From Acorus gramineus (taxonomy: Eukaryota; Streptophyta; Magnoliopsida; Acorales; Acoraceae), in assembly GCA_030737835.1 (NCBI GenBank), contig CM060851.1, positions 11,836,897-11,900,896 on the forward strand: DNA of 64,000 nucleotides, written 5' to 3'. Numbering within the stretch: the stretch's first letter is position 1; the number at the start of each line of letters is the position of its first letter. The translations under genes were made by a program, and so were the position numbers. The notes under the pieces were generated by a model that ran no database searches, was not told the DNA's origin, and saw only the letters and a program-made list of their open reading frames with translations. This document shows, in pieces, positions 36,560-58,593 of the stretch.

Positions 36560-36940
36560 TCGTGCAGTGACCTCCTTCTGGTTCTTCTACTCCCTCTGCT
36601 TTCTCTACTACTTCAGGTACTCTTGTTCATTGGATTTTTGATTCAGGTGCCTCACATCACATGACACCAGACAGTTCCCTCCTCTGTCCTCTCCGGTATG
36701 ACTCCTCATGAGCGTCTTTATTCTTCTCACCCTGATTATAGCAAACTCCACACATTTGGATGTACGTGTTTTGTGCTTCTCCCTCCTCATCAACGCATCA
36801 AGTTGGCCGCTCGGTCAGTAAAGTGTGTATTTTTGGGGATTAGCTACAAACACAAGGGTTATCGCTACTATGATCCTGTTGGAGATCGATTTTGGATCAC
36901 TAGTCATGTGTCCTTTGTCAAGGATGTTCCCTATTTTTCT
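36560..36940 (+). pseudogene. pol: Copia protease fused by deletion to the end of integrase
   Basis: The protease motif WIFDSGASHHMTPDSS (about 36634-36680) is followed within ~20 bases by GMTPHERLYSSHPDYSKLH, FGCTCFVLLPPHQRIKLAAR, CVFLGISYKHKGYRYYDPVG, the C-terminal part of copia integrase. GAG-pre-integrase, the zinc finger and the DDE core of integrase, normally ~1.2 kb, are absent. Confidence 0.85.
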
Positions 36941-38884
36941 TCTTCACCCACTTCGTCCTCTCCTCCTGTGCACTCTCTTGTTCAGGTCTCTTCTGTACAT
37001 TCTCTTGTTCAGGTCTCTCCTATTACGTCTCTTCCTTTTCCTGGCCTACCTCTTGCACTAGAGTCTGTTCCTACCTCTGCCTCTCAACCTGACACTCCTG
37101 CAGATATTCCACCCTCTCCTCCCAATGTGTCTCCTATTGCCCCTATTAAAGATACTTCCGCTGGTCCTCCGACTCTCACGCCTAACACGCCTCCTCCTGC
37201 TGTGGATCCTCAGCTCTTGCCTCGTTATCCTCAGCGTGCGCGTCACCCCCCTTCCCGATTCAGTCACGACTCGGGACCACCTGACCAGTTTGGTTTTGCA
37301 TCTGTCAGTACCTACTCTCCACGGTTTCAGGCCTATCTCACAGGTATACATGCCCACCGTGAGCCTTGTTCTTACCGCGAGGCAGTCGAGTACCCTGAGT
37401 GGAAGGAGGCCATGGCAGAGGAATTTCAGGCATTTGAGCAGACACAGACTTGGGATGTTGTTCCCCTTCCAGATGATGTTACATCTATTAGCTGCAAATG
37501 GATCTTCAAGATCAAGCATCGTCTTGATGGGTCCATTGATCGGTATAAAGCTCGTCTTGTTGCTTGAGGTTTCACCCAGGAGTATGGTATTGACTATGAG
37601 GAGATGTTTGCACCTGTCGCTCAGATGACCACTGTTCGTACTCTCCTTGCAGTTGCTGCTGTTCGTCGCTGGCCTCTCTTTCAGATGGATGTGAAGAATG
37701 CCTTTCTTCACGGTGACCTATCTGAGGTTGCCCATATGTAGCTACCTCCAGGTGTTAGCACTCCTCCTCAGCATGTTTGTCGTCTTCGACGGGCTATATA
37801 CGGACTGAAACAGGCTCCTCGTGCCTAGTTTGAGCGTTTTCGCAATGTTATTCTGACAGCTGGTTTTATTGAGAGCCACTAGGACCACTCTATGTTCGTG
37901 CGTTCCTCATCGCAGGGGCGGGTAATCCTTCTTCTGTATGTTGACGACATGATTATAACTGGCGATGACTCCGCTGGTATTACTCTGGTCAAGAATCACC
38001 TCAGTCGACAGTTTCAGATGAAGGATCTTGGTACTCTTCGCTACTTCCTTGGTCTCGAGATTGCACAGAGTGACCGTGGGATCTTGCTTTCTCAACAGAA
38101 GTATACAGCTGACATTTTAGCGCGTGCTGCCCTTTCCGATACTCGCAATGCGAATACTCCTCTCGAGCTTCATGTGAAGCTTCATCCTACAGATGGTGAG
38201 CTTCTTCCAAATCCTACTAGATACAGACAGATTGTGGGTCAGCTTGTGTATCTCTGCATTACCAGACCTGACATTGCTCATGCTATTAGCATTGTTAGTC
38301 AGTTTATCTCGACCCCTCGATCAGTGCATTATGGTGCTCTTATGCGTATTCTCATATATTTACGTGGTACTATCACTAGATCGCTGTATCTGTCATCCTC
38401 TTCCACTTTGGTTCTTAGAACTTACACTAATACTGATTGGGCTGGAGATCCAACCACGAGATGCTCTACCAATGGGTTCTACATATTTCTTGAAGATTCC
38501 ATCATCTCTTGGCGCAGCAAGAAACAGGAATTTGTTTCCCTGTCCAGCACTGAGGCTGAATATCGAGCCATGGCTATCACCACCAAGGAGATTGTTCATC
38601 TCAGACGTATCTTGGTGGATCTAGGAGTTACTATGACTGGTCCTACTCCTCTTCACTGTGATAACCGATCTGCTATTCAAATTGCTAGCAATCCGGTCTT
38701 TCATGAGAGAACCAAAAACATTGACATCGATTGTCACTTCGTTCGTCAGCACTTTCTTGCAAAGACATTATCGCTTCCGCATTTCTCCTCTGCTGAGCAG
38801 CTTGTTGATTTCTTTACGAAGTCGCATCCAGTTCCTCGATTTCAGTTTCTCCTTCGCAAACTCACTTTGTATGATCCACCATGA
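36941..38884 (+). pseudogene. pol: Copia reverse transcriptase and RNase H with stop codons
   Basis: After a Pro/Ser-rich linker, RT begins at ~37390 (YPEWKEAMAEEFQAFEQTQT, CKWIFKIKHRLDGSIDRYKA). Stops occur at about 37565 (RLVA* for the usual RLVA-R/K-G), 37739, 37827 and 37879. The catalytic YVDDM lies at about 37937-37951, and RNase H spans about 38420-38760 (YTNTDWAGDP, STEAEYRAMA, DNRSAIQIASNPVFHERTKN). The part from 37892 to 38884 is open for 330 codons. RNase H is followed directly by the PPT and LTR. Several stops are single changes of CAG/TGG/CGA-type codons, as expected from cytosine methylation and deamination. Confidence 0.9.
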
Positions 38885-45256: not shown

Positions 45257-48200
45257 CTATTTGCTTCCTCCATTGCCAACACTGATCTCAGAATTAACAG
45301 CAATGTCCTTTACAGAGGCAGAGCCAATATCCACCTTGGGAGGACCCGAATGCCTCCTAGGCATTGCTGGCAACATCCCATGCTTCTCTGCAGCTGGGAA
45401 TGACAGCCGCTTCTTCACTGAGCCAACAGAAACCCTATCCGGCGTCATATCTGGCCTTTCGTTGCTCAGAGGGCTCTGCAGCCGGGACTTTGCCTTGGCA
45501 GACTGTGTGGGGGTCATGTAGTTGGGCACTGCAGGGGAGCTTGCCAGGCTCTCATCGTCCCTCACCGATGATCCCGCAATGCTGTGCTGCCTATGTGACT
45601 GCAGGCTGAGCATGCTCCTTGAATCGTCATCCTGGCCCCACCCGCCTCGTGGGCTCGCAGGCTTTATCTTTCCTGTGATGGATGAAGCTTTGGAGGGGGT
45701 TGATGGAGAGTGACGGCTGGTGGGACGGTTCAACTTCTGGGCGAGGGGAGGATGGTCTGGGGTGAGATCCCTGCGAGCATAGGATTTGGATATTTCACCT
45801 CCAACACTTATGCTTGCACTCTTCACAGATGCTTGTGAGTCGGGCTCCCTATCAGTTGCACTCCGGCTCTCCCATGGCCGCGCTGCCATCCAACGCTCCA
45901 ACCAGCTCCAACCCCATTGTGGGTTGTTCGGATCCATGAACATTGGGTTAACTGACCTTGAAGGATTCTTTAACATTTGCTATATAAAAAAAAAAAAGGG
46001 TTGCCATATCATACAGCAGAACAAACACTGGAAAGGTGAATTTTACAATGATGATAATACAAAAAAGCATCCTATTTAATTTTTCTGATTACTCCAACCC
46101 ATTCATTTTAATCTACATGTTGTAATAGGTATGTTCTCATGCAAATTTAAAACGTAAACACCTTAACCCATTTAAGAAAAATGCAAAAATATGAATGGTC
46201 ATGGGAAAACAATAAAAAAAAAAATCTCTAATGCATAATGAAGAAAAATCCATTAGGCCTTTTGAACAAGTTGCAATCTCTAAATATAATGTAGGTTATA
46301 CTGAAATATCTGGATGAATACAACCAGCTGTTAGAGACACTTTGGCATAATTACGAAAACCTATGCAACTAGCATTTCTCATTCAGAAAATGAATTTTTC
46401 CACGAATTATGGACAGTTGAATATATGTTGTAAGATAATAGGTGTTTCAGGGACCAGAGAAAGAAAATTGAAATCAATGAGAAGAATAACAGAACAAAAT
46501 CAAATTTCGCTGCATAGATTGATGGTCCAGCCAATAAATCTTTACAAGTCAATTCAGACACCACCTAATATTATTTTGTAAAATAATATATGTATGGAAT
46601 ATCTATTGAAAGGGGAGCATTCCCACTTGAGAAGAATCTAAACACTGGAAAAGCTAACAATGGCTGGAGAAGGGCAAGTATTACTTACTTGATGAGTAAA
46701 TGCATATGCAAGTGCTCTTTCTCTTCTTATAGCGGCCTCTTGCTTATGAAGGAGACTCGTTTCGATCTGCTCTTTAGATTGCATACTGTCATCCCAATCA
46801 TCTCCCATCTGTTGCAAATTTAAAATCAATAGTATAAACATGTTGTTGAGAAAATGTCATTGTGATTACTTCTTCGAGAACGAAAAAAAATGAGGAAATG
46901 ATGAAATTGAAATATCTGCTCAAAATGAAACAGAAATGGGGAAATAGACAGGTCAACATAACTGTATATTTTCAGAAGAAAGTCAAACATATTATGCTCC
47001 CCAAAATTTAGTTAGCATGCAGTCCAGGCAAAGTTACTTCAGACAATGAATCAATTTGCTTTAGATTTTTTAAACACCAATATACATAATTTATATAAGC
47101 AGAAGTCCATATACGTAAAATTATTGTTAGATTTGATCCTCTTTGAACTTTCAGAGTGCCACAATCTTCATCAGAGCCAAAAATTTACAAAAGCAGCATT
47201 GATTTAGAATGGCACGGTCAAGAGTATTCATTCAGATCATATAGGATCGCAGGCGCAAAATCTAACTCAATTTTTTTTATCAACATATACTGTATCAGCC
47301 AGTACTTGGATGTCAAAACTGTAGATGACATGCACTGATTAGGGCTGCAACCCGAATTCCAAACTACTCAACCCTAACCCGACCCAACCCGATTTTCAAC
47401 CCGAATTGGACCAACCCGAACCCAACCCGTAATTAAATAAACCAACCCGAACCAACCCGAATTGGACCAACCCAACCCAATCCGATTTTCAACCCGAATT
47501 GGATCAACCCGATCCAACCCGAATTTCTAACATGATGTGCAAATTAAATAAATCAACTCGATCCAACCCGTAAAATTAACTATATTTACCTAAAATTTGA
47601 ACTACCCAGATTAGAAGCTAAAGTTTGATCTTTTTTTTAACTATTAGTGTGCGGGTTCGGGTTGGGAGTGAGGCCAACCTGAACCCAACCCGATTTGTGA
47701 GTCAACCCGAATTGGCCAACCCGAACCTGAACCCGATTTAGTCAACCCAACCTATGTAAAAATCGGGTTCAACCCAACTCAAGTTGCAGCCCTAGCACTG
47801 ATGCACGCATTTATTGAAATATTAATGAATGTTACATGTTTTGTATTGATTCCTGACCCGAGAAGTACCAAAAAGTACAATTTTAACTCCAAGGCAAATA
47901 AATTAGGAAAAAAGGAAAAAAAACAATCTCATTGGCTGATCATAAAAATTGTATGTGCAACGACTGAGGATGACATGTATGCACAGTGTAGTATAAATAA
48001 ATGTTAAATTTATTATTGTATTCATTCCTGAAAGTACCACTTTAATCATCAACAAGGCATATAAATTAGGAAAATCAGAAAGCAATCTATAGGATAACTT
48101 AAACAATGTGTGTGCAGTAAAATTGCCAAATTACTCTACCACAGTAGGACAAGCCAGTTACACTTGTTCTTGTACGGTAAGAAAAGGTCAGTGTGAATGA

Positions 48201-51200
48201 TCACATCAAATGTTAACTAGCCACAATTAATTTTTCATGCATGTAAAATGCTTTTTTAGAGGATTATAAAATTCTATAATCCACTATATCATGAAATGCT
48301 AATCATAACTCAAAAACAAAAGGATAGATAAACAACATAGGATCAACATATAAAAACAAAGGACAACATCTTTTAACTCTTGGAAAAACTTGTCACTCAA
48401 TAAGAATTTTTTTATCCTAAAAGATATGGAATATTATCAAACAGGAAGGATAGCGTCAAAATGTATAGTGGAAATCAATTGAATAGAACAAGTATGTAAT
48501 TACATATGTGAGTGGGTTTTGGTGATTTTAAAATTTATTACAAACAATAATAAAGCATATGGTATCCTACAAATGTGGAGTCATACATATCTGTGTGCAA
48601 ATAGACATGTAAGGTTTATACATAGGTAACTACCATGTGCACTCCTACCGTTTTAGAATGGCAAATGAACAAGATATGTTATGTAGGCTCATACAGCTGA
48701 ATAATTTGACAAAAGAAGGGCTTATTTAGGCTATTTGGCATAGATAACCATATATAGAGCTAGTCCCGTCAGCATGTAAAGTTTATGAATAGCATGTCAT
48801 ATGCACTCCTATCATTTTAGGAGGGATTGATCATACCACCTCACATAGACAACCATATATAGAATTGGTGCCTTCAACATGACCCCTTGTTACATTTTGA
48901 ATTGAATTTTTGGCTTAACCATTCTAATCAATTATAGTTATACTTTTCCAAATTCCAATCAATCAAGGAATTCAATTTCCAATATCTCTTTGAACATCTC
49001 CCCTTCCATTTGAGCGCTGCCAGTCGCCCTCGCCAATCCCCCTCCCATCCTGATCTCTCTATGTTTCTCCAAAACATAAAAAAAGGCTAAAAACCCTAAA
49101 CGATGATGGCGTTGGCGACTGCTACAAGTGGACAGAAGTGTACATAGCAATGTTGGGGGGTCAGGCGGAGTGCTATGAAGAGATGGTAGATCTCATAGAG
49201 AATGTAGTCTCCTCTGACTCTTGTGCATCTGTCAAGCAGCTCTTCGTCGAGAAGCATAAACTCTTTCCAATGGCTTATAAAAACATTCTCAACACCCGTT
49301 GCACCTCTTGGAGTATCATCTCCTCCAATGAGTAGAAATCCTGCAAAAACTCCTCAAGTATCATCTCCTCCATCGTGCAGGAGTTCTGTGCTCGTGACGT
49401 TCTTGTAAAACATTGAGAAGAGGTTATGCCCCTCAATGAAGAGCTGCTCAACCGCTATGGTGGAGTCAGATGGAGAGACTACCTTCTCCATGAACTCTAC
49501 CATCTCATAGCACTTCGCTTGCCCCTGCTTTTCCATGTACACATTCTCCTCCCTACTCGCCACGGTCGTCAACGCCAATACAATTCCTAAACAGAGAGAT
49601 CGGGGTTGGAGGGGACTGGCAGCACTTGAGTGGAAGGGAGATGTTTAAAGGAATATTGAAAATTGAATTACTATGTTGATTAGGGTATGAAAGACTACGA
49701 TTATGGTTGATTAGAATGTACAAGCCAAAAATTCAATTCAAAATTTAACGAGCGGTCATGCGAAGCACAGGCTATACATATGGTTAGCTATGTAGGGTAG
49801 CCTGATCAAGTCTTTCTAAAATGGTAGGAGTTCACATGACATCATAAACTTACTTGTTGTAGGCATTGGCTCTATATATGGTTAGCTATGTGGGGTAGCC
49901 TGATCAAGCCCTTCGAAAATGGTAGCAGTGCACATGGCATGCACCTATGTATGAATCTTATAAGTTTGTCTACACACACGCGCGCAAATAAGTTTGTCCC
50001 GAGTTGGCACTGAGGATGTTGAAGGGTAACTGAAGATTCTACATGTCCTCTGGTCCATAAAACCCTCTCATATATTTAATTACATACCTAATAGCACCCC
50101 AATAAGAATTCTTTATAACTATAAATTTTTAAGACCCCCAATCCCAGCAACAAATGAGAGTTAGAATCCACTAGAAGAACACATTAATAAGAGACAAGAA
50201 TGATTATCTTAGAGAGAGGGAGAAAAGAATGTTGAATGGTTGCAAATATATGAGAATTGCAGCAGCCAATCACTTTGGAAGATGGCTCATTAAAAAGGTT
50301 AAATAAATTACCTTAGAGGGTTATGTATTGCATATTGGTAACACACATACCTGTACCAGCAAACTAAAGCTACAAAGGAGATTTGCTTAATCAAACGCTT
50401 GATATGGTCATAAGAGTACAATTTAACCAATGAATATGATTTAAAGTTTATAAAATATATATTTTCGGTTAATGAACATCACCTTGAAGTTTGGACACTC
50501 TAAATCATTATTTGAATGAGAACATTCAACAGGTCCAGTAATTATTATTCATAAGTCATTCATATATATAATTGTGAATGTTGAGGTTCTTTAGTGAAAT
50601 GTTGTGACATTACCTGCATATAAATATTGAGATTAAATGTTAATAAAAATGTTCTTTCATGTCAAAATTACTCTATAAATATTGTTACTTCTCTGGGTGG
50701 CATGAATAATTTTACCACAATATCATCCAAAAAGAAAAGGAATGCAAAATGCAATGCAAAGAATAAGAAACCAGACTATGATACCTCCATAACCTCTAGG
50801 GAAAACATAATATATTTTAGGAACACATGTATAATGATATAAAAGACAACTTACAGAAGCTCTCAAGTTTTCACGCTCCCGTTCACATTTGAGTTGCAGT
50901 TGGCGCTGAAGAGCCAGATTTTCTTCAGTCATTCTGATCCTCCTCGAGCGAATTTGAGACTGCACTCTAGCCAGAGTCTGCATGCAACGTAATGTGGTAG
51001 TTGCCTGACGTTTAACACTTTGACCATCTATCAGTGCTTTCAGCCTAACAAGTCCTCTAAGTGCCCGCAGTGCTCTCCTTGCCTTAAAAATTAGAGAAAA
51101 GAAAGGAATAAGTAAAACCAACCAAAACTCAGATAGCACACAGCTTTTGATGAATCCTACAGATTTTATCAGACTAACAATGCTTCAAATGTGAAACCAA

Positions 51201-52715
51201 TGTGATACTGAATATGTTTCAGTTAACTTCATCAGAAAAGTTACTTTCTCTATTTTTAAAAACATAAAAATAAGATCTCGTTCATTAAAAATGTAATTTT
51301 TTGTATAAAAAAAAAAAGAAGTTAAAATCCTAGTATCCGACACACCTCTATCACAAAGTTCAAGATGAAAAAAAGGAGCATTCACTGAATTATGATATGC
51401 ATTGAAATTATAGAGGAAAGGTCAAGATATACCCTCACACAGAGTGCAGCAGTTTTAGCCCATGATCTGGGCACCAAATGGAGATTGATTGCCAAGAGCA
51501 TGAGAAAGAAATAGGGAAAGTATTAAAGAAAAAGGAATTAGAGTGGGGAAAAGGGTTGTCCATAATTTACAATGGAAAATCATTAGAGCAGGAGAGAACC
51601 CATAGTCCAAAGAGCAAACATGAACGAGAGTGGAAAGAAATCATAAGTTTCCTGCAATTGATAAACGGATCAACGATAAACAACTAGTGATGAGAACTCG
51701 ATTAACGACCTCCATATTCCAAACTTCAAATCTACTCCCCACTTTCCAGGCAACCCACCAATTGGAAAATTGCCTTGAGAGTACCAATCATTCTATGTTC
51801 GGCTGGATTCATAAAAGGAGACTCTTTTATAGTTTGACAAACCTTGACATATAAGTGCCTACTATTTTCAGTGACCAATATCAACAAAAATGAAGTTTAA
51901 TTTCCAATATTGGCCTCATGAAAACAGACATAAAAGAAGCCAATAATTATCATCCGAAAAATAGGAAAGGATCCAGTCAGTCACTAAATAAGAATTTACA
52001 ACCCACATCGGCCATCTTCAACCCTTACTCAACCAAATACCTAAATTTCACTAAAAATTTGAATAAAAGTTTCATTTGATATGGAATGTCTCCCACCATC
52101 ACTTTGTGTTTTACTCAAAATCTATTAAAAAATTCCCATCTGCTCCCAATTATTTCCTACAAAAGGTTTGAGTCTCCCTCGATTTTTAGATAAAAATTTG
52201 ATTTTTACTCAAATTTAAATTTGGGTATAAGATTGGAGACACTCTAAGAAATACTGAAAGAGAGTTCCATTAGATTTTGATAATTATACCAAGTACCCAC
52301 GGAACGCGGTCTGGATCTTGATGGCAGCAATATCCTCGCTCGACTTCCCGGAGTACCGCGACGTAGGCGTGGTGAGACGAACAACCTCCGCGGCCGCCTG
52401 TGCAGCAGCCACAGCCGCCTCTGCGGCGACGGCGGTGGCAATAGCCACAGAGTAGGCATGCTTGCTCTGCTCATTCTCCACATCCGTGATCTTCACCTGC
52501 TCGTTCGGTGGAGGAGGAGCTGGCGTTGGCGGCTTTTCTGAAGCCGGTGGCCCCGCCGACGATGTTCCCAACGAAGACGAAGAGGGATCTGCGGATCTTG
52601 ATTTCCCGAACCCCCATTTCTTCTTCGACCTGTGGTTTCCCTGTTCTTTCTTCTCCTTCGATTCGGGGCTGAACACCCTCTTCACCGCGCCGAACCAGTT
52701 CCCTTTCTTCCCCAT
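45257..52715 (-). CDS. IQD: IQ67-domain (IQD) calmodulin-binding protein, IQD2/IQD3-like
   Basis: Four exons on the minus strand: 52715-52290, 51082-50855, 46808-46689 and 45979-45257, all phase 0, giving 498 residues. The N-terminus [20 protein letters not shown] is the usual IQD start. After an Ala-rich stretch comes the IQ67 domain (about residues 126-205): [34 protein letters not shown], then [20 protein letters not shown]. Its characteristic phase-0 intron falls right after RGYL. Exon 3 has [20 protein letters not shown] and [13 protein letters not shown]. Exon 4 has [56 protein letters not shown] and KKRLSFP, the DUF4005 end found in the IQD2/IQD3 subgroup. IQD proteins bind calmodulin and are scaffold proteins at microtubules, membranes or nucleus; several help set cell shape. 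Frame and splice sites are intact. Intron 2 is 4,046 bp and contains two transposable elements. Confidence 0.93.
47340..47794. mobile_element. hAT-type MITE, complete, 455 bp
   Basis: Inverted ends TAGGGCTGCAAC and GTTGCAGCCCTA are flanked by a perfect 8-bp duplication GCACTGAT (47332-47339 and 47795-47802). The body consists of (ACCCGACCCAACCCGAATT)-type repeats. It lies in IQD intron 2. A truncated relative lies at 32109-32542. Confidence 0.92.
49103..49350 (+). pseudogene. 14-3-3 protein N-terminal fragment, left copy
   Basis: Starts ATGATGGCGTTGGCGACTGC at 49103. After a frame disturbance near 49120-49140, the frame reads [60 protein letters not shown], then a stop at 49333. Compare the 14-3-3 pattern (VYMAKLAEQAERYEEMV... 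[20 protein letters not shown]). It covers helices 1-3 only. The upstream 100 bases resemble a 5' leader (AAAACCCTAAACG before the ATG). It is a captured, decayed fragment. Confidence 0.85.
49354..49578 (-). pseudogene. 14-3-3 protein N-terminal fragment, right inverted copy
   Basis: The 74-codon minus frame from ATG 49578: [74 protein letters not shown]. It keeps the REENVYM start and EMVEFMEKV block of 14-3-3 proteins better than the left copy. Homology fades after YKNV, where a short repeat (GGAGGAGATGATACT) occurs twice at the centre of the palindrome. The two copies are convergent. Confidence 0.85.
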
Positions 52716-53100
52716 CTTCCCCTCAAATCATTACTCAGCTGACCCTTCCAAACCAAGCAAACAAAAACAAAAATTAGTAAGTATTACCAGATCAGGAACA
52801 TATTGAATAGAATTAAAGATCAGATCAGAGAAAGAACTTACAAATAGAAGGAATGGATGAGATCAGAGAGTGATTTGGAAGTGGGAAGAAAACCAGATCT
52901 TGGAGAGGTGAGGGGAGGGGGGGGGGGGGGGGTGGAAGAAAAACAGCTGTTTGGGTTTTTTTGAGAGTGGACCCAATAATCACAAAGATCATGTGAGAGG
53001 GGGTGGTGGGGAGATGGGACCCACTGTGGAAATGTACAGGTTTTGCAGACACCCAAAACAAGGCTGGCTTTGTGATCACTCTTTCTAAAAATTGGAATCT
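52716..53100 (-). promoter_or_regulatory. 5' leader of the IQD gene with a likely 5'-UTR intron and a G16 run
   Basis: On the minus strand, GTAAGTTC at 52841 (donor) and TTGGAAG at 52745 (acceptor) could bound a ~97-base intron just before the ATG at 52715. Further upstream the plus strand has a run of 16 G (52917-52932), i.e. C16 on the transcript strand, within a purine/pyrimidine-skewed stretch typical of leaders. No clear TATA box is seen. Confidence 0.45.
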
Positions 53101-56100
53101 GTGGGAGTTGGATTGTGGGGGACTCTTTTTATTCGTTCCTAACAACTTTTAAGATGGACTCGAGCTTATGAACTTGGACCTGTCGTGTTTGTTGGGTATT
53201 GATGTTACTATCGGCTGATGTGGATAGTCCACCATATCGATTTCAAAATTTCATAGGGAAATTAATATTAAGGAGGGTTGATTATCACTCTCATTGGAAC
53301 AGAAAAAAAAATTCTTTGTTCCTACTTTCATTCCTTGATATTTTAGATAAATTTTTTTCTTTTCTCATATTCATTCTCTACTAAAATTGGATTCTTAGAA
53401 ACGAGCAATTGTCCTCATAAATTAGGGTTACCAAACATACCCTAAATATTTTTCTCATATTTTTTCAAGTCCCTAACAATACTTTCTTAAGTTTTGTTTA
53501 TCGGTGCTTTGACTAATGGCTGGTGTTTCTACTGCTACCCTAAAAGTTGCACACTCTCCTTGTTCCACATCAAACTTGCATGTCTCTTCTCATCCTCGGA
53601 TCCACCAGTGAACGTGCACGAAGATAAGTTCACCTCGTCTAATGAGGTTGATGACCAGCGACTAGAGGTGTAATTTGATTGGATTAGTTCAGTTTTGTGT
53701 TAAATTAAATTGAACTGAAAAGTGAATTATCACTAAATCCAACTCAAACTCGAACCAAACCGAATTTGAACGCACATTATTAAACTAGTAAATTGAACTC
53801 AATTTGTTTAGTCAATTCACATCGGATCGAACTGAACCAAATTTGTAAATTAGGTTATGTGGTTCTACTAGAATTATAAATGCAAACAACATATCATATT
53901 AATGTTATTAAAATAGAATTTATATAAAAATCTAATAAATGGTGAAAAGTGGATATTGATAACAAGAACGACTAGAATTAAAGAGTTTATCTAAACAGAT
54001 AAAAAAAATTCAACAAGTAGTCCCATCCACTGTATAACAATTTTATGTCGGAATAAGCACATTGTGAATCAAACACGGTTAAAAAACTAAAAATAGAATA
54101 GTATATACTACTCTCATAAATATCAAAGTCAAATGATTTAGTTAACAACTGAAATTAACTTCTAATAAGTTTTCTCTAATTAAAATTCGTCAAAGTTTTT
54201 CTCAAACCAAACCACATCATTTGATTAAAAAAAAATTGAGAGATGATAGCTACCTACACTGGTCCCATGTTTCTCTCCATTAAATAAGTTGTTTTTTTAA
54301 CAAAATTTACTTTTTTAAGAGATGATAGCCAAAGAAGGTATTTTAGTAAATATAAAATATGTTGAATTGAAATTTTGGACACATATAAGCAATTGTTTTC
54401 AATAGTCCATTCTAACACGGGCTATATACCCACCCCATTTCAAAAAAAAATTCACACATTTTTATTTTTATTTTTTGATATCGAAGGAACTCCCGTGGTC
54501 GAATTTATGGTTAAACTTGTTTACCCCGGTCACATGAAATAAAAAATTTGAATAATCGTTAACAAACAGGTAGATAAGTCAACGCTACCCTTAACCATTG
54601 TGTTATGGTCATGGAGAACATAAAAAACATATTATTATATTTTCTAAAACAATGCAAAATCCACCCTTATTTATTCCACCCCGTTTTAACTGATATCAAC
54701 TCTTGGATGTTTGACACTCTCACAATGAAAGAATGAGTGTATCTCACCCCAAAATAAAAGAAAAAAAAAAAAAAAAAAACAAGGTGGAGGTGGTTAATCA
54801 TCTAAATGGGTGGGATTGAAAGAAAACGGGGTTAACATGTCCGCCCCCATTCTATAATTGGTCTCTTATGTAGAAATATGTTTTCTGTTGGACCTAATTG
54901 CGAATGACATTAATGACAAATGCTTGTTTTATTGCAGCCCACCACCTTACCTATAAAATTAATTAAGCAATGCATGATTGTATCTTTACACTCGAGTGCA
55001 ACTGTGAAAAAAAATGTTTTGGAGATAAAAACAAGACATGATTCTAACCTTGTCGAAGAGGACAACCACTTATTAGAAAAGTAAAAAGCCTGTCCCCACC
55101 ATTTCCACATAAGCTTTTTCCGTCACTGAAAGACAGAGCCAATGAACTTGTGTTTGAAGGAGTGCATATGAAGTCCAAGTATATCCTTTTGTCCTCAAAA
55201 TTTTCGATTGAAACAGAGGTGAAACATGCAAATACAATTTCAGTATCTCATCCATCTCACGCAATATGGATCGATATATGTATATATCTGACCACAGCCC
55301 TTCCATTACTTTTTCTTTAATAAATTTGTCTCTTTTAAACCAGGTGTATGGAGGGCCCTTTTCATTCACTATCACTGTGTTAGGAAAATTTTGTTTATTT
55401 TTAAACTATGGATACTGGGGTAGTTCACCTGACACTATTTTGGTGGAACTGCAAGAAGTGGGGTTTAATACATATTTTTTTAATAATAAATAGCAGGTTG
55501 TATTGTGATTAATATGCAGTTATCAATGATAATGTTCTATGGTTTATCTTTCTATATGTATTCATAAAGTTTTTTTTTTTTTTCTTGGTTTCTATTCATA
55601 AAGTTCAATATCAATTGCCTACTTATAAATTGCCTGGAAAGGACTGAGGTACCTTTTTAAAAGAAACCACTTTTTTGATGCGTGTTGAAGTGAAACCAGT
55701 AATTTTTACTGTGATAATTATGTATTTCAATCATATATCACACATTGTTTTAGTATTTGATCTATTAAACACCATAATTAAAGTCCCTTGTCAAATAATA
55801 TTTTTTTAATTGTTGAAATTTTTTGGGTTAAGAGGAGGGTGTAAAACATCTCAATCAGTGATAAAAGATAATTTAAGTGTTACATGAGAGGATGGTTTTT
55901 TTCATTTTTTTAATGATATAAATTTATTAGATAAAAACCATTTTTGGTAGAGTTCTTTAAAACGAATTATTTTGATATATATATTATGTTTAAGAGATTT
56001 TTTTAATCATTTTCTAACAAATGTAGGTTATACATGTAGCCTCAACATCTTCCAAACTCCATGTTTGCAATAGGAAAATGGGTTAAGTTTTTCCTATTAA

Positions 56101-56910
56101 TATATAATATAGGAAAATGTTATGTTTAACCATATTTACATAAATACAGGCCTATATACAACTTACAAGCGTTTTGATTTTTTTTTTTTTTTTTACGTGT
56201 ATGCATGGCTCATAAAATATTTTTTTAATAAATATATACTCATGAATTGAATAATATATTATCATTTTTTTTAATATATACCGATATAGTAGATTATAAT
56301 ACGTTAGATGATTTTATACACTTCATTAATGATGTAACAACCGTATACAAAACAGAATTGAGTGTATCAAGGCTAATGCTTAAAATTTTAAGATTTGATT
56401 ACAATGAATTTCTAATCCATATCATTATCAGAAAAGTATGAGTTGACTTGTAGTAGGATTATGAGTGGGGGTTGGTCACAGATTCAAGCAACTGGAAATA
56501 CTAACTGAAACAAGGAAACTTTCACTGCAAACTTCAGTGAAAGGGATATGATAATCTGCGAGTCCCTTATTGGAACATGCTTTTGTTGCCTTTACATTTT
56601 ACATTAATATTTCTGGGTTGGCCGCCTTCCACGATAATTTTGATGATGAGATCATATTGAAATAAAAGTATGACATTAATTTATTGTTGAGACGATTTCA
56701 TATTGTTGGATGTGATTCAATTATTTCTTCTTACTTCCTAGTCAGAGGTGGTAAGGCATGATGACTCTAAACTACATAAATGGTAATAAATAGGGTCGGT
56801 TGCAGGCCGGAATGTGACAAAATCAATGCCTTCGGCAGTTTCACCAACTAAATTAACCACTCACCAGTCGAGCGCTCATACAGTCAGTCTATTTTACAGC
56901 CTCATACACT
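53101..56910. other. AT-rich intergenic region
   Basis: No gene recognised. A 53640-53880 stretch (AACTGAAC-, CGAACCAAACCGAATTTGAA-like motifs in both orientations) resembles a decayed hAT-type MITE. A minus frame of 100 codons at 55375-55073 has no recognisable domain. Poly-A/T runs are frequent. Confidence 0.45.
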
Positions 56911-57610
56911 GTACATGTTTGTTAAAACTTATAAATTGCAGATTATAGTTTTTATCTTAAAATAAACAGCTATTGGATGTTTGTTTAAACTTTTTAGAAC
57001 TTATTTAACTTAGAACAACTTAAAAAAATCATAATCTCTAAGTTAGGAAAATAATGATTTTGATATTATAGCTTATAAAAGACATTAAATTTTTTATTTT
57101 GGACACTCATGCCTTTAATCTTTTTTTACCAATAACATGTGTATCTATTTTTTTCCTATTACACCAAAAATCACCAAACCATATTTCATCTTCTTATTTT
57201 TTTCACTATTACAAAATATACATTATCAAATTTTTTTTGTAATTCCATTTGTCACTCAATTTATTAAAATTCTAGAATATAATATTTGAAAAACAATGTA
57301 GTGATTTTGAAATATTATTTATGTTAATTTAATTTTCTTTTAAATATTTATAAAATTAATTTTATATGTAAAAATCAACTTATTTAATCAAACATAAATC
57401 AATTTTTACTTCTATAGTGGAGGGTTATTTTTTACAATTGTACAGCAAAAAGCTATTTTATAACTTATTAAACAAACATCTACTGCTGCTTATTTATTGT
57501 TTTTAAATAGTTATAACAAACATGTTTACAACTTATCAGAAAAGTTATAATTTATAATCTATAAGTTATAATCTATAATCTGTAAATTTAAGCTGCAACA
57601 AACACGGCCA
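56911..57610. mobile_element. MITE or other TIR element, ~700 bp
   Basis: The left end TACATGTTTGTTAAAACTTA...GCAGATTATAG and the reverse complement of the right end GGCCGTGTTTGTTGCAGCTT...ACAGATTATAG are imperfect inverted repeats. An inner AACAAACATC repeat also occurs. Target duplication is uncertain. The centre is AT-rich, without coding content. Confidence 0.5.
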
Positions 57611-58196
57611 CTATATACTATCATCGTATATGAAATTAAAAAAAAATATTTCTTTTATTTTTTTAAAATGTATCATTGTATCTCAGTATATACTTCATTT
57701 CATATATGATGGTTATTTGGAAAACAACTGATGTGGCGGCAGTGGCGCGGAAGAAGAAAATCGACGTTTTTCTTTTAGAAGAAGACCTTTAAATCCACAA
57801 GGAAGAAGAAGATCACTTCATCTTCTAGATAAATCATTGAATCAACAAGGAGTCCTTGAAAACACAAGGAAAAATAAAATAAGATAAATTTTATTAATTC
57901 TAAATAATCTATCTTACAATGATGATGGCACCTTTATATATACACCACAATTAGATAACAAAATCTTAACTAAAAAAATTTGAAACAAAACCTAAAAATT
58001 AAAAAGATCTAACAAACTTATTCAAATCTAAAACTGAATAAATCATTTAAAATTCAAAATCTAATCCTAACTAATAAATAATGGTTATTTAGATAATCTA
58101 TCCTACATCAATACAATAATATGTACTTCAATGAAAGAGTATATTGTGTTTTTAAGAAATAAAAACGATGTGTGGATTGCAAATGGAATTGCATAA
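57611..58196. other. AT-rich intergenic region
   Basis: Contains dispersed repeat family B (57611-57725) and an A-rich segment. No gene recognised. Confidence 0.4.
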
Positions 58197-58593
58197 GAGC
58201 ATCTCCAATGGACATGTTAGTTAATCAAGATGTTAAAGTGCCATGTCAGCACTTTATCCCTCAACTAGACACTCATTTACTACATTATTATTTAGTTGGT
58301 TGTTATTACTCCAATAGACTTGCTAAATAACTAGTCAAAATAATAGTGGGCCCACCTCTCCACCCACTCAAATCTGTCTACCCATCCAAAATAATATTTT
58401 TTTTAATCTTTTAAATGGTAGGGGCCACATTTGGTTGGCTAAAGCACTAGCCACAGTTAACACTTCCTTTAACATATGACAAGTGGGACCCACATTTAGC
58501 TTGCCCTTAACACTTCCATTGGAGCACCATTTTTATATGTTTTCTAAAAATCTGACACTAACTAGTGAGTTAACATGTCCATTGAAGATGCTC
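58197..58593. mobile_element. PIF/Harbinger-type MITE, 397 bp
   Basis: Inverted ends GAGCATCTCCAATGGACATG and (reverse complement of the right end) GAGCATCTTCAATGGACATG are flanked by TAA at 58194-58196 and 58594-58596. The GAGCATCTCCAATGG end is very common among plant MITEs. Subterminal blocks (GGGACCCACATTTAGCTTG) have no coding content. Confidence 0.8.

Follow-up and report, generated by a model that had tools for sequence, protein, structure and literature searches.

An imperfect palindrome built around two decayed 14-3-3 gene fragments in an intron of an IQD-type gene of Acorus gramineus

The locus described here lies in a 64,000-nucleotide stretch of the Acorus gramineus genome (GenBank assembly GCA_030737835.1, contig CM060851.1), referred to below as the window, in which a minus-strand gene of four exons and 498 codons was found with a single terminal stop and GT-AG introns (Table 1). 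The last exon of this gene encodes a DUF4005 domain (PF13178, 1.9e-8), and the first exon alone matches the IQ motif (PF00612) slightly under the cut-off (9.7e-4); a gene with this combination presumably belongs to the IQD family, which agrees with the name given to it by the first-pass annotation. The second intron is 4046 nt in length with the reading frame intact across it, and an imperfect palindrome is contained within this intron, confirming the earlier placement in an IQD-type host gene that is itself intact. Minisatellite arrays with a CAACCCGAA-type unit were also observed in this intron (47397-47753). Elsewhere in the window (36665-38881), retrotransposon polymerase pieces were detected (SH3_retrovirus, 3.7e-24; RVT_2, 3.5e-21), which we read as Ty1/copia-type.

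Table 1. Window coordinates of the host gene, the palindrome, and its component features.
Feature	Position	Strand	Details
IQD-type gene	45257-52715	-	exons 52715-52290, 51082-50855, 46808-46689, 45979-45257; 498 aa
IQD intron 2, contains palindrome	46809-50854	-	gene model
Left outer inverted block	48492-48520	+	contains 48497-48506, left member of 10-bp direct repeat
Imperfect palindrome	48592-49978	.	arms ~650-750 nt each
Palindrome left distal end	48592-48662	+	inverted pair I3, 77%
Left arm, two subrepeat units	48634-48885	+	direct repeat D4, 82%
Left arm AT-rich middle	48878-49002	+	79% complementary to 49636-49760; one side of 24-bp stem
Left 14-3-3 fragment	49054-49335	+	~44 nt possible leader and ~codons 1-75
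Candidate antisense-capable 21-mer, among left arm's best	49235-49255	+	2 mismatches to donor; stems 49231-49245 and 49247-49259 with 49424-49452
Central loop zone, tandem 39-nt pieces, 45 nt spacing	49305-49388	+	direct repeat D3
Right 14-3-3 fragment	49354-49644	-	~codons 3-59, without recognizable donor leader
26-nt donor identity	49481-49506	-	sense in IQD transcript; run this long or longer in 0.017 of 2000 neutral simulations
Right arm, two subrepeat units, 98 nt spacing	49757-49942	-	direct repeat D1, 86%
Palindrome right distal end	49908-49978	-	inverted pair I3, 77%
Right outer inverted block	50059-50087	-	contains 50077-50086, right member of 10-bp direct repeat

Self-alignment of the intron resolved the palindrome into two arms that are 72-78% identical in five segments with gap columns excluded. 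The strongest opposite-strand self-match spans 48715-49914 (66% with gaps, E-value of 2e-91 by BLASTN), and self-comparison additionally paired the two distal ends; this similarity is far above chance. In both arms, the distal end is followed inwards by two subrepeat units, then by the AT-rich middle, a stretch rich in pyrimidines, and lastly the 14-3-3 fragment. Along this order, the arms are identical at 49/63, 113/156, 94/120, 42/57, and 131/182 positions (0.78, 0.72, 0.78, 0.74, and 0.72), with 8, 9, 0, 46, and 13 gap columns left out, respectively, and with 48663-48714, which is mostly without a partner in the right arm, excluded from all segments. The center of the palindrome includes a tandem 39-nt piece (49305-49343 and 49350-49388), the second unit of which matches donor exon 1 in the plus-strand sense. 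Within arms, the subrepeat units are 82% (68/83, left) and 86% (67/78, right) alike and thus closer than across arms (71-79%), suggesting that exchange may have taken place within each arm after the inversion.

Beyond the ends given by the first-pass annotation, a symmetrical outer inverted block matches at 26/29 positions, with a best score of 21.5 compared to a maximum of 13 among 300 shuffles. The palindrome of about 1.4 kb that had been reported for this intron was therefore recovered, and the outer block suggests a length nearer 1.6 kb. The spacers between the outer block and the arms (48521-48591 and 49979-50058, about 72 and 81 nt) do not align with each other; one or both have therefore been replaced or inserted.

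The innermost segments of the arms were annotated from the letters alone as two convergent copies of the first 75 or so codons of a 14-3-3 gene, each with its leader, and this description was confirmed with corrections to the extent of the right copy and to the leaders. The 14-3-3 identity was confirmed by protein searches, in which the left open reading frame matched Pfam family PF00244 (E-value of 2.3e-8, 34.3 bits compared to a cut-off of 33.2) and a plant 14-3-3 chain (1.6e-10), and the right open reading frame matched the same chain (1.3e-8) with a Pfam score under the cut-off (E-value of 0.069). The two copies are indeed convergent, with the left on the plus and the right on the minus strand, and the left corresponds to approximately codons 1-75 of the donor when aligned to it, but the right covers just codons 3-59 or so. 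Similarly, a leader is weakly apparent in the left arm, where 4/300 shuffles did equally well in the main comparison (3 to 7/300 across four comparisons), but the donor leader was not recognizable in the right arm, where 221/300 shuffles were equally good. The earlier caution that the copies have diverged was right. Both fragments are broken, the left by a frameshift near its start and the right by the loss of its ATG.

With PF00244 as the query against all six reading frames of the genome, 27 exon-level matches were returned, which were grouped as eight gene loci and the fragment in the window. By DNA search, the only relatives of the arms outside their own locus and its allele were a gene on contig C9 and its near-copy on contig C79; the first-pass annotation had proposed searching the same genome for a donor, and this is the nearest gene returned. 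Alignment to this gene gave 69% identity over 285 nt for the left arm and 75% over 173 nt for the right arm, and the donor lineage is that of the present C9/C79 gene. The regions surrounding the pair (L021 on C9, L022 on C79) are 97-98% alike in two stretches of 4096 and 2844 nt; the two genes are either alleles or the product of a recent duplication. Since the captured piece sits inside a single donor exon, DNA-mediated and RNA-mediated capture are not distinguishable.

When the arms were placed in a tree with the eight loci, they were sisters (bootstrap of 100) and joined the donor gene loci L002/L003 (bootstrap of 96); the stem that they share measured 0.267, and the tips 0.245 for the left arm and 0.124 for the right arm. 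Of the 160 columns compared, 15 have a nucleotide that the arms hold in common and that is absent from all seven host genes considered (L003 was omitted for its near-zero tree distance from L002), and 23 and 13 sites were private to the left and right arms, respectively. Additionally, 27 of the 51 codons are invariant in the genes; the left arm has changed 11 of these, the right arm 9, and both arms 6, with the same new residue in both arms at 4 of the 27. These changes common to both arms point either to decay of the fragment before the inverted copy was made or to conversion between the arms.

The inverted arms are clear; the outer block lies beyond a non-matching zone, and the terminal ends are therefore ill-defined. 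Target-site duplications of Mutator elements measure 9-11 bp, and a direct-repeat scan was conducted with ends placed at 48470-48604 and 49965-50109. The best 15 candidates were ambiguous, all of them lying at the outer block and none at the ends of the first-pass annotation. They include a 10-bp direct repeat, TAATTACATA, that is not flush with the arms. Its left sequence, TATGTAATTACATA, reads the same on both strands, and an inverted repeat of a self-palindromic sequence by itself yields a direct repeat.

Further copies were sought across 398.6 Mb of genome in 137 contigs, with all match counts being lower bounds. The whole element gave at least 10 matches, of which 4 were at its own locus and 2 each on C14, C79, and C9; the left distal arm gave at least 3, all at its own locus; and the right distal arm gave at least 5, with 4 at its own locus and 1 on C14. 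A 24-mer from the subrepeats, allowing up to 3 mismatches, gave at least 3 matches, again all at its own locus, compared to 0 for its reversed control. A multi-copy transposon family was rejected at the sensitivity of these searches, as the queries with the full palindrome, with each distal arm, and with the 24-mer returned only the locus itself, the allelic contig, and the donors. Genome-wide, neither a further copy of the palindrome nor a relative sharing its terminal inverted repeats (TIRs) was returned beyond the allelic contig and the donors at a sensitivity that can miss short diverged copies, as seen for a 71-nt piece on C14 (77%) that was found with the whole element and not recovered with the left distal arm. 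The outer block was also considered as the mark of a TIR family and rejected, with 13 matches at up to 3 mismatches compared to 7 for the reversed control being near chance; the sole genome match of the outer motif with fewer than 3 mismatches is the motif itself.

The allelic contig C14 (L019, C14:107000-116592) is 98.75% identical to the window over 8.5 kb (49896-58381). It ends inside the right arm at 49896 and thus covers only the right end of the palindrome, of which it independently carries 49896-49990 at 99% identity. The contig end falls within the palindrome as if the haplotype's assembly had been interrupted at this point. On the other side, the alignment runs no further than 58381.

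In the transcript of the IQD-type gene, the right arm reads as 14-3-3 sense and the left arm as 14-3-3 antisense. The corresponding 1394-nt minus-strand RNA has a predicted fold of -636.7 kcal/mol with 1042/1394 nt paired, compared to -262.9 to -435.2 kcal/mol for ten other stretches of 1394 nt from the window (GC of 0.42 for the element and 0.30-0.48 for the comparison stretches). The longest unbroken predicted stem, 24 bp with one G-U pair, is in the AT-rich middle and outside the 14-3-3 part. Both arms resemble one gene family over lengths well beyond 21 nt (285 and 173 nt). The right arm contains 26 nt identical to L002/L003, in the sense orientation, and the longest identity of the left arm to these loci is 11 nt; the best left-arm 21-mers have 2 mismatches to L002/L003 and 2 mismatches to L001 as well.

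These matches were compared with 2000 neutral simulations, for which branch lengths were fitted to the same data and indels were ignored. A right-arm run of at least 26 nt was reached in 0.017 of the simulations and right-arm 21-mers with zero mismatches in 0.085; a left-arm run of 11 nt or shorter occurred in 0.41 and a best left-arm 21-mer with at most 2 mismatches in 0.64. Across 51 codons, differences at codon positions 1, 2, and 3 numbered 13, 9, and 19 between the arms, 15, 10, and 24 between the donor and the left arm, and 13, 11, and 15 between the donor and the right arm; third positions are mildly in excess between the arms and between the donor and the left arm. Selection on the hairpin was rejected as an explanation, since no consistent signal emerged from segment identities, codon positions, or neutral simulations. 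Among the five arm segments, others are better conserved than the 14-3-3 part, and nothing in these comparisons points to its having been kept paired. No Rfam family was found in the window at the gathering threshold.

Combined, these results are best explained, with a probability of roughly 0.78, by a single-copy relic of a foldback or inverted duplication that is carried neutrally in the second intron of the IQD-type gene. The 5' portion of a 14-3-3 gene of the C9/C79 lineage would have been joined in one arm with sequence lying upstream of it; the piece would have lost its coding function before copying; and the whole arm would then have been copied in inverted orientation, either by duplication on the spot or within an element of foldback or Mutator type whose terminal repeats had been extended, leaving the palindrome resident in an intact gene. 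We infer both the order of decay followed by inversion and the neutral carriage; gene conversion between the arms, rather than decay before inversion, could also be the source of the shared changes. The hairpin in the pre-mRNA may at most be a substrate for Dicer-like enzymes, in which case the resulting siRNAs would be expected to act mainly on the locus itself. Against the neutral relic, the 26-nt match of the right arm exceeds the usual neutral run (0.017, one of four measures), and the differences between the donor and the left arm show the mild third-position excess; the searches can moreover miss short diverged copies, and the allelic contig covers just the right end.

Two narrower forms of this relic can be weighed against each other. 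In one, held tentatively and at somewhat under even odds, the palindrome is a decayed Mutator-type foldback transposon resembling a Pack-MULE, with the gene fragment absorbed into extended TIRs and with tandem subrepeats at both ends. The long inverted arms with subrepeats in both agree with this form, as does a direct repeat at the outer block within the Mutator size range; tandem and extended TIRs have been described for plant MULEs (excerpt of PMC3310237) and gene fragments within transposon inverted repeats for another element (excerpt of PMC2572040). However, the genome searches returned no second copy, matches to the outer motif are near chance genome-wide, the direct repeat is self-palindromic and follows from the inverted repeat with ends that are not flush, and the spacers between the outer block and the arms do not match. 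The capture of a gene fragment by a TIR element, as proposed in the first-pass annotation, is possible, but receives no help from a second copy in the genome searches or from the 15 best direct repeats. The other form, which we consider just as plausible and no firmer, is an inverted duplication in place, by template switching or break repair and without transposition, of an intron segment that already held the 14-3-3 fragment. A single copy at the sensitivity of the searches, the changes common to both arms, and the lack of a clear target-site duplication among the best 15 direct repeats agree with such an event, but the symmetrical outer blocks and the subrepeats in both arms also fit a mobile element.

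A functional role is far less probable than the neutral relic. The first-pass annotation had suggested a trans-acting small-RNA source co-regulated with the IQD-type gene, and a working intronic hairpin of this kind, either an siRNA source or a young MIRNA by which the donor 14-3-3 gene would be repressed upon IQD transcription, is very improbable here. The strongly paired predicted fold, the 21-mers of the left arm that differ from L002/L003 and from L001 at 2 positions, and the perfect 26-nt match of the right arm agree with it, and inverted duplications of coding genes do yield MIRNA loci (excerpt of PMC1790633). However, the arm capable of antisense pairing is no nearer to the donor than expected from neutral decay (0.64), conservation of the 14-3-3 part does not exceed that of the remaining arm segments, the window holds no Rfam family at the gathering threshold, and the longest unbroken stem is outside the 14-3-3 part; on the first two of these counts, the trans-acting proposal gains no support. 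The lack of a near-identical target, which would have counted against that proposal, applies by half, as a perfect 26-nt match to the donor exists but is located in the sense arm, where a plus-strand transcript would be required for it to serve as antisense. Marginally less probable still is a transitional hairpin encoded by the intron, with imperfect arms that would mark a stage between an siRNA locus and a MIRNA gene and with small RNAs, supplied through transcription of the IQD-type gene, that would match the donor 14-3-3 lineage; if true, it would couple a calmodulin-binding scaffold gene to 14-3-3 dose. An assembly artifact, suggested by the end of C14 inside the right arm as if assembly had failed on one haplotype, can practically be dismissed, as the arms differ by more than 20%, which is beyond what mis-joining makes, and as C14 carries the right end independently.

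Overall, the locus provides a clear example of a plant gene fragment forming the arms of a hairpin in the transcript of another gene, and new siRNA and MIRNA loci have been proposed to arise from such material. With the donor-lineage gene and an intact host in one assembly, trans-silencing, self-action, or inertness is directly testable. If the palindrome is neutral, as is likely, it is an ordinary fossil.

Several known systems offer a comparison. FARE of Arabidopsis is reportedly a foldback transposon and is named beside Tetris as comparable, and Chen et al. in 2011 reportedly described plant intronic siRNA loci under the name 'sirtrons'. The excerpts of PMC1790633 and PMC3237417 present inverted duplications of coding genes as a source of siRNA and MIRNA loci, with 16 loci among 48 non-conserved Arabidopsis MIRNA families attributed to this origin in the former. 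The foldback loci of this Allen model resemble the palindrome in having inverted copies of a gene fragment with its flanks at a single locus, a hairpin if transcribed, and a parent gene that is present (excerpts of PMC1790633 and PMC3237417). In contrast to them, the palindrome sits in the intron of an intact gene unrelated to the fragment, the decay of which seems to predate or accompany the duplication; the Allen-model loci yield small RNAs, whereas the palindrome would be a candidate source of them. Intronic regions giving siRNAs are termed 'sirtrons' in the excerpt of PMC5260113, and the likeness is that of an intronic sequence potentially feeding siRNAs against its own host gene; sirtrons do produce siRNA, whereas the palindrome is a candidate. 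In maize, miRNA-like structures accompany more diverse small RNAs and more methylation (excerpt of PMC10760457).

Among mobile elements, plant MULEs can have TIRs arranged in tandem at either end and can incorporate acquired sequence so that the TIRs become extended, with a minor maximum of MULE sizes in tomato at 1300-1400 bp (excerpt of PMC3310237). These elements and Pack-MULEs share with the palindrome the long inverted arms, subterminal repeats at both ends, a gene fragment, and a length of about 1.4-1.6 kb (excerpt of PMC3310237); unlike Pack-MULEs, the palindrome comes with no family found, no firm target-site duplication, and undefined TIR ends. The foldback transposon Tetris of Drosophila likewise has inverted arms that make up nearly the whole element and internal subrepeats (excerpt of PMC4079207), but the palindrome, unlike FARE and Tetris, is single copy and carries a host gene fragment in its arms. 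Turmoil-1 of C. elegans holds host coding fragments within its inverted repeats (excerpt of PMC2572040), but is an animal transposable element, whereas the palindrome may or may not descend from a mobile one. A literature search for plant palindromes that carry a 14-3-3 fragment gave nothing relevant among the matches listed.
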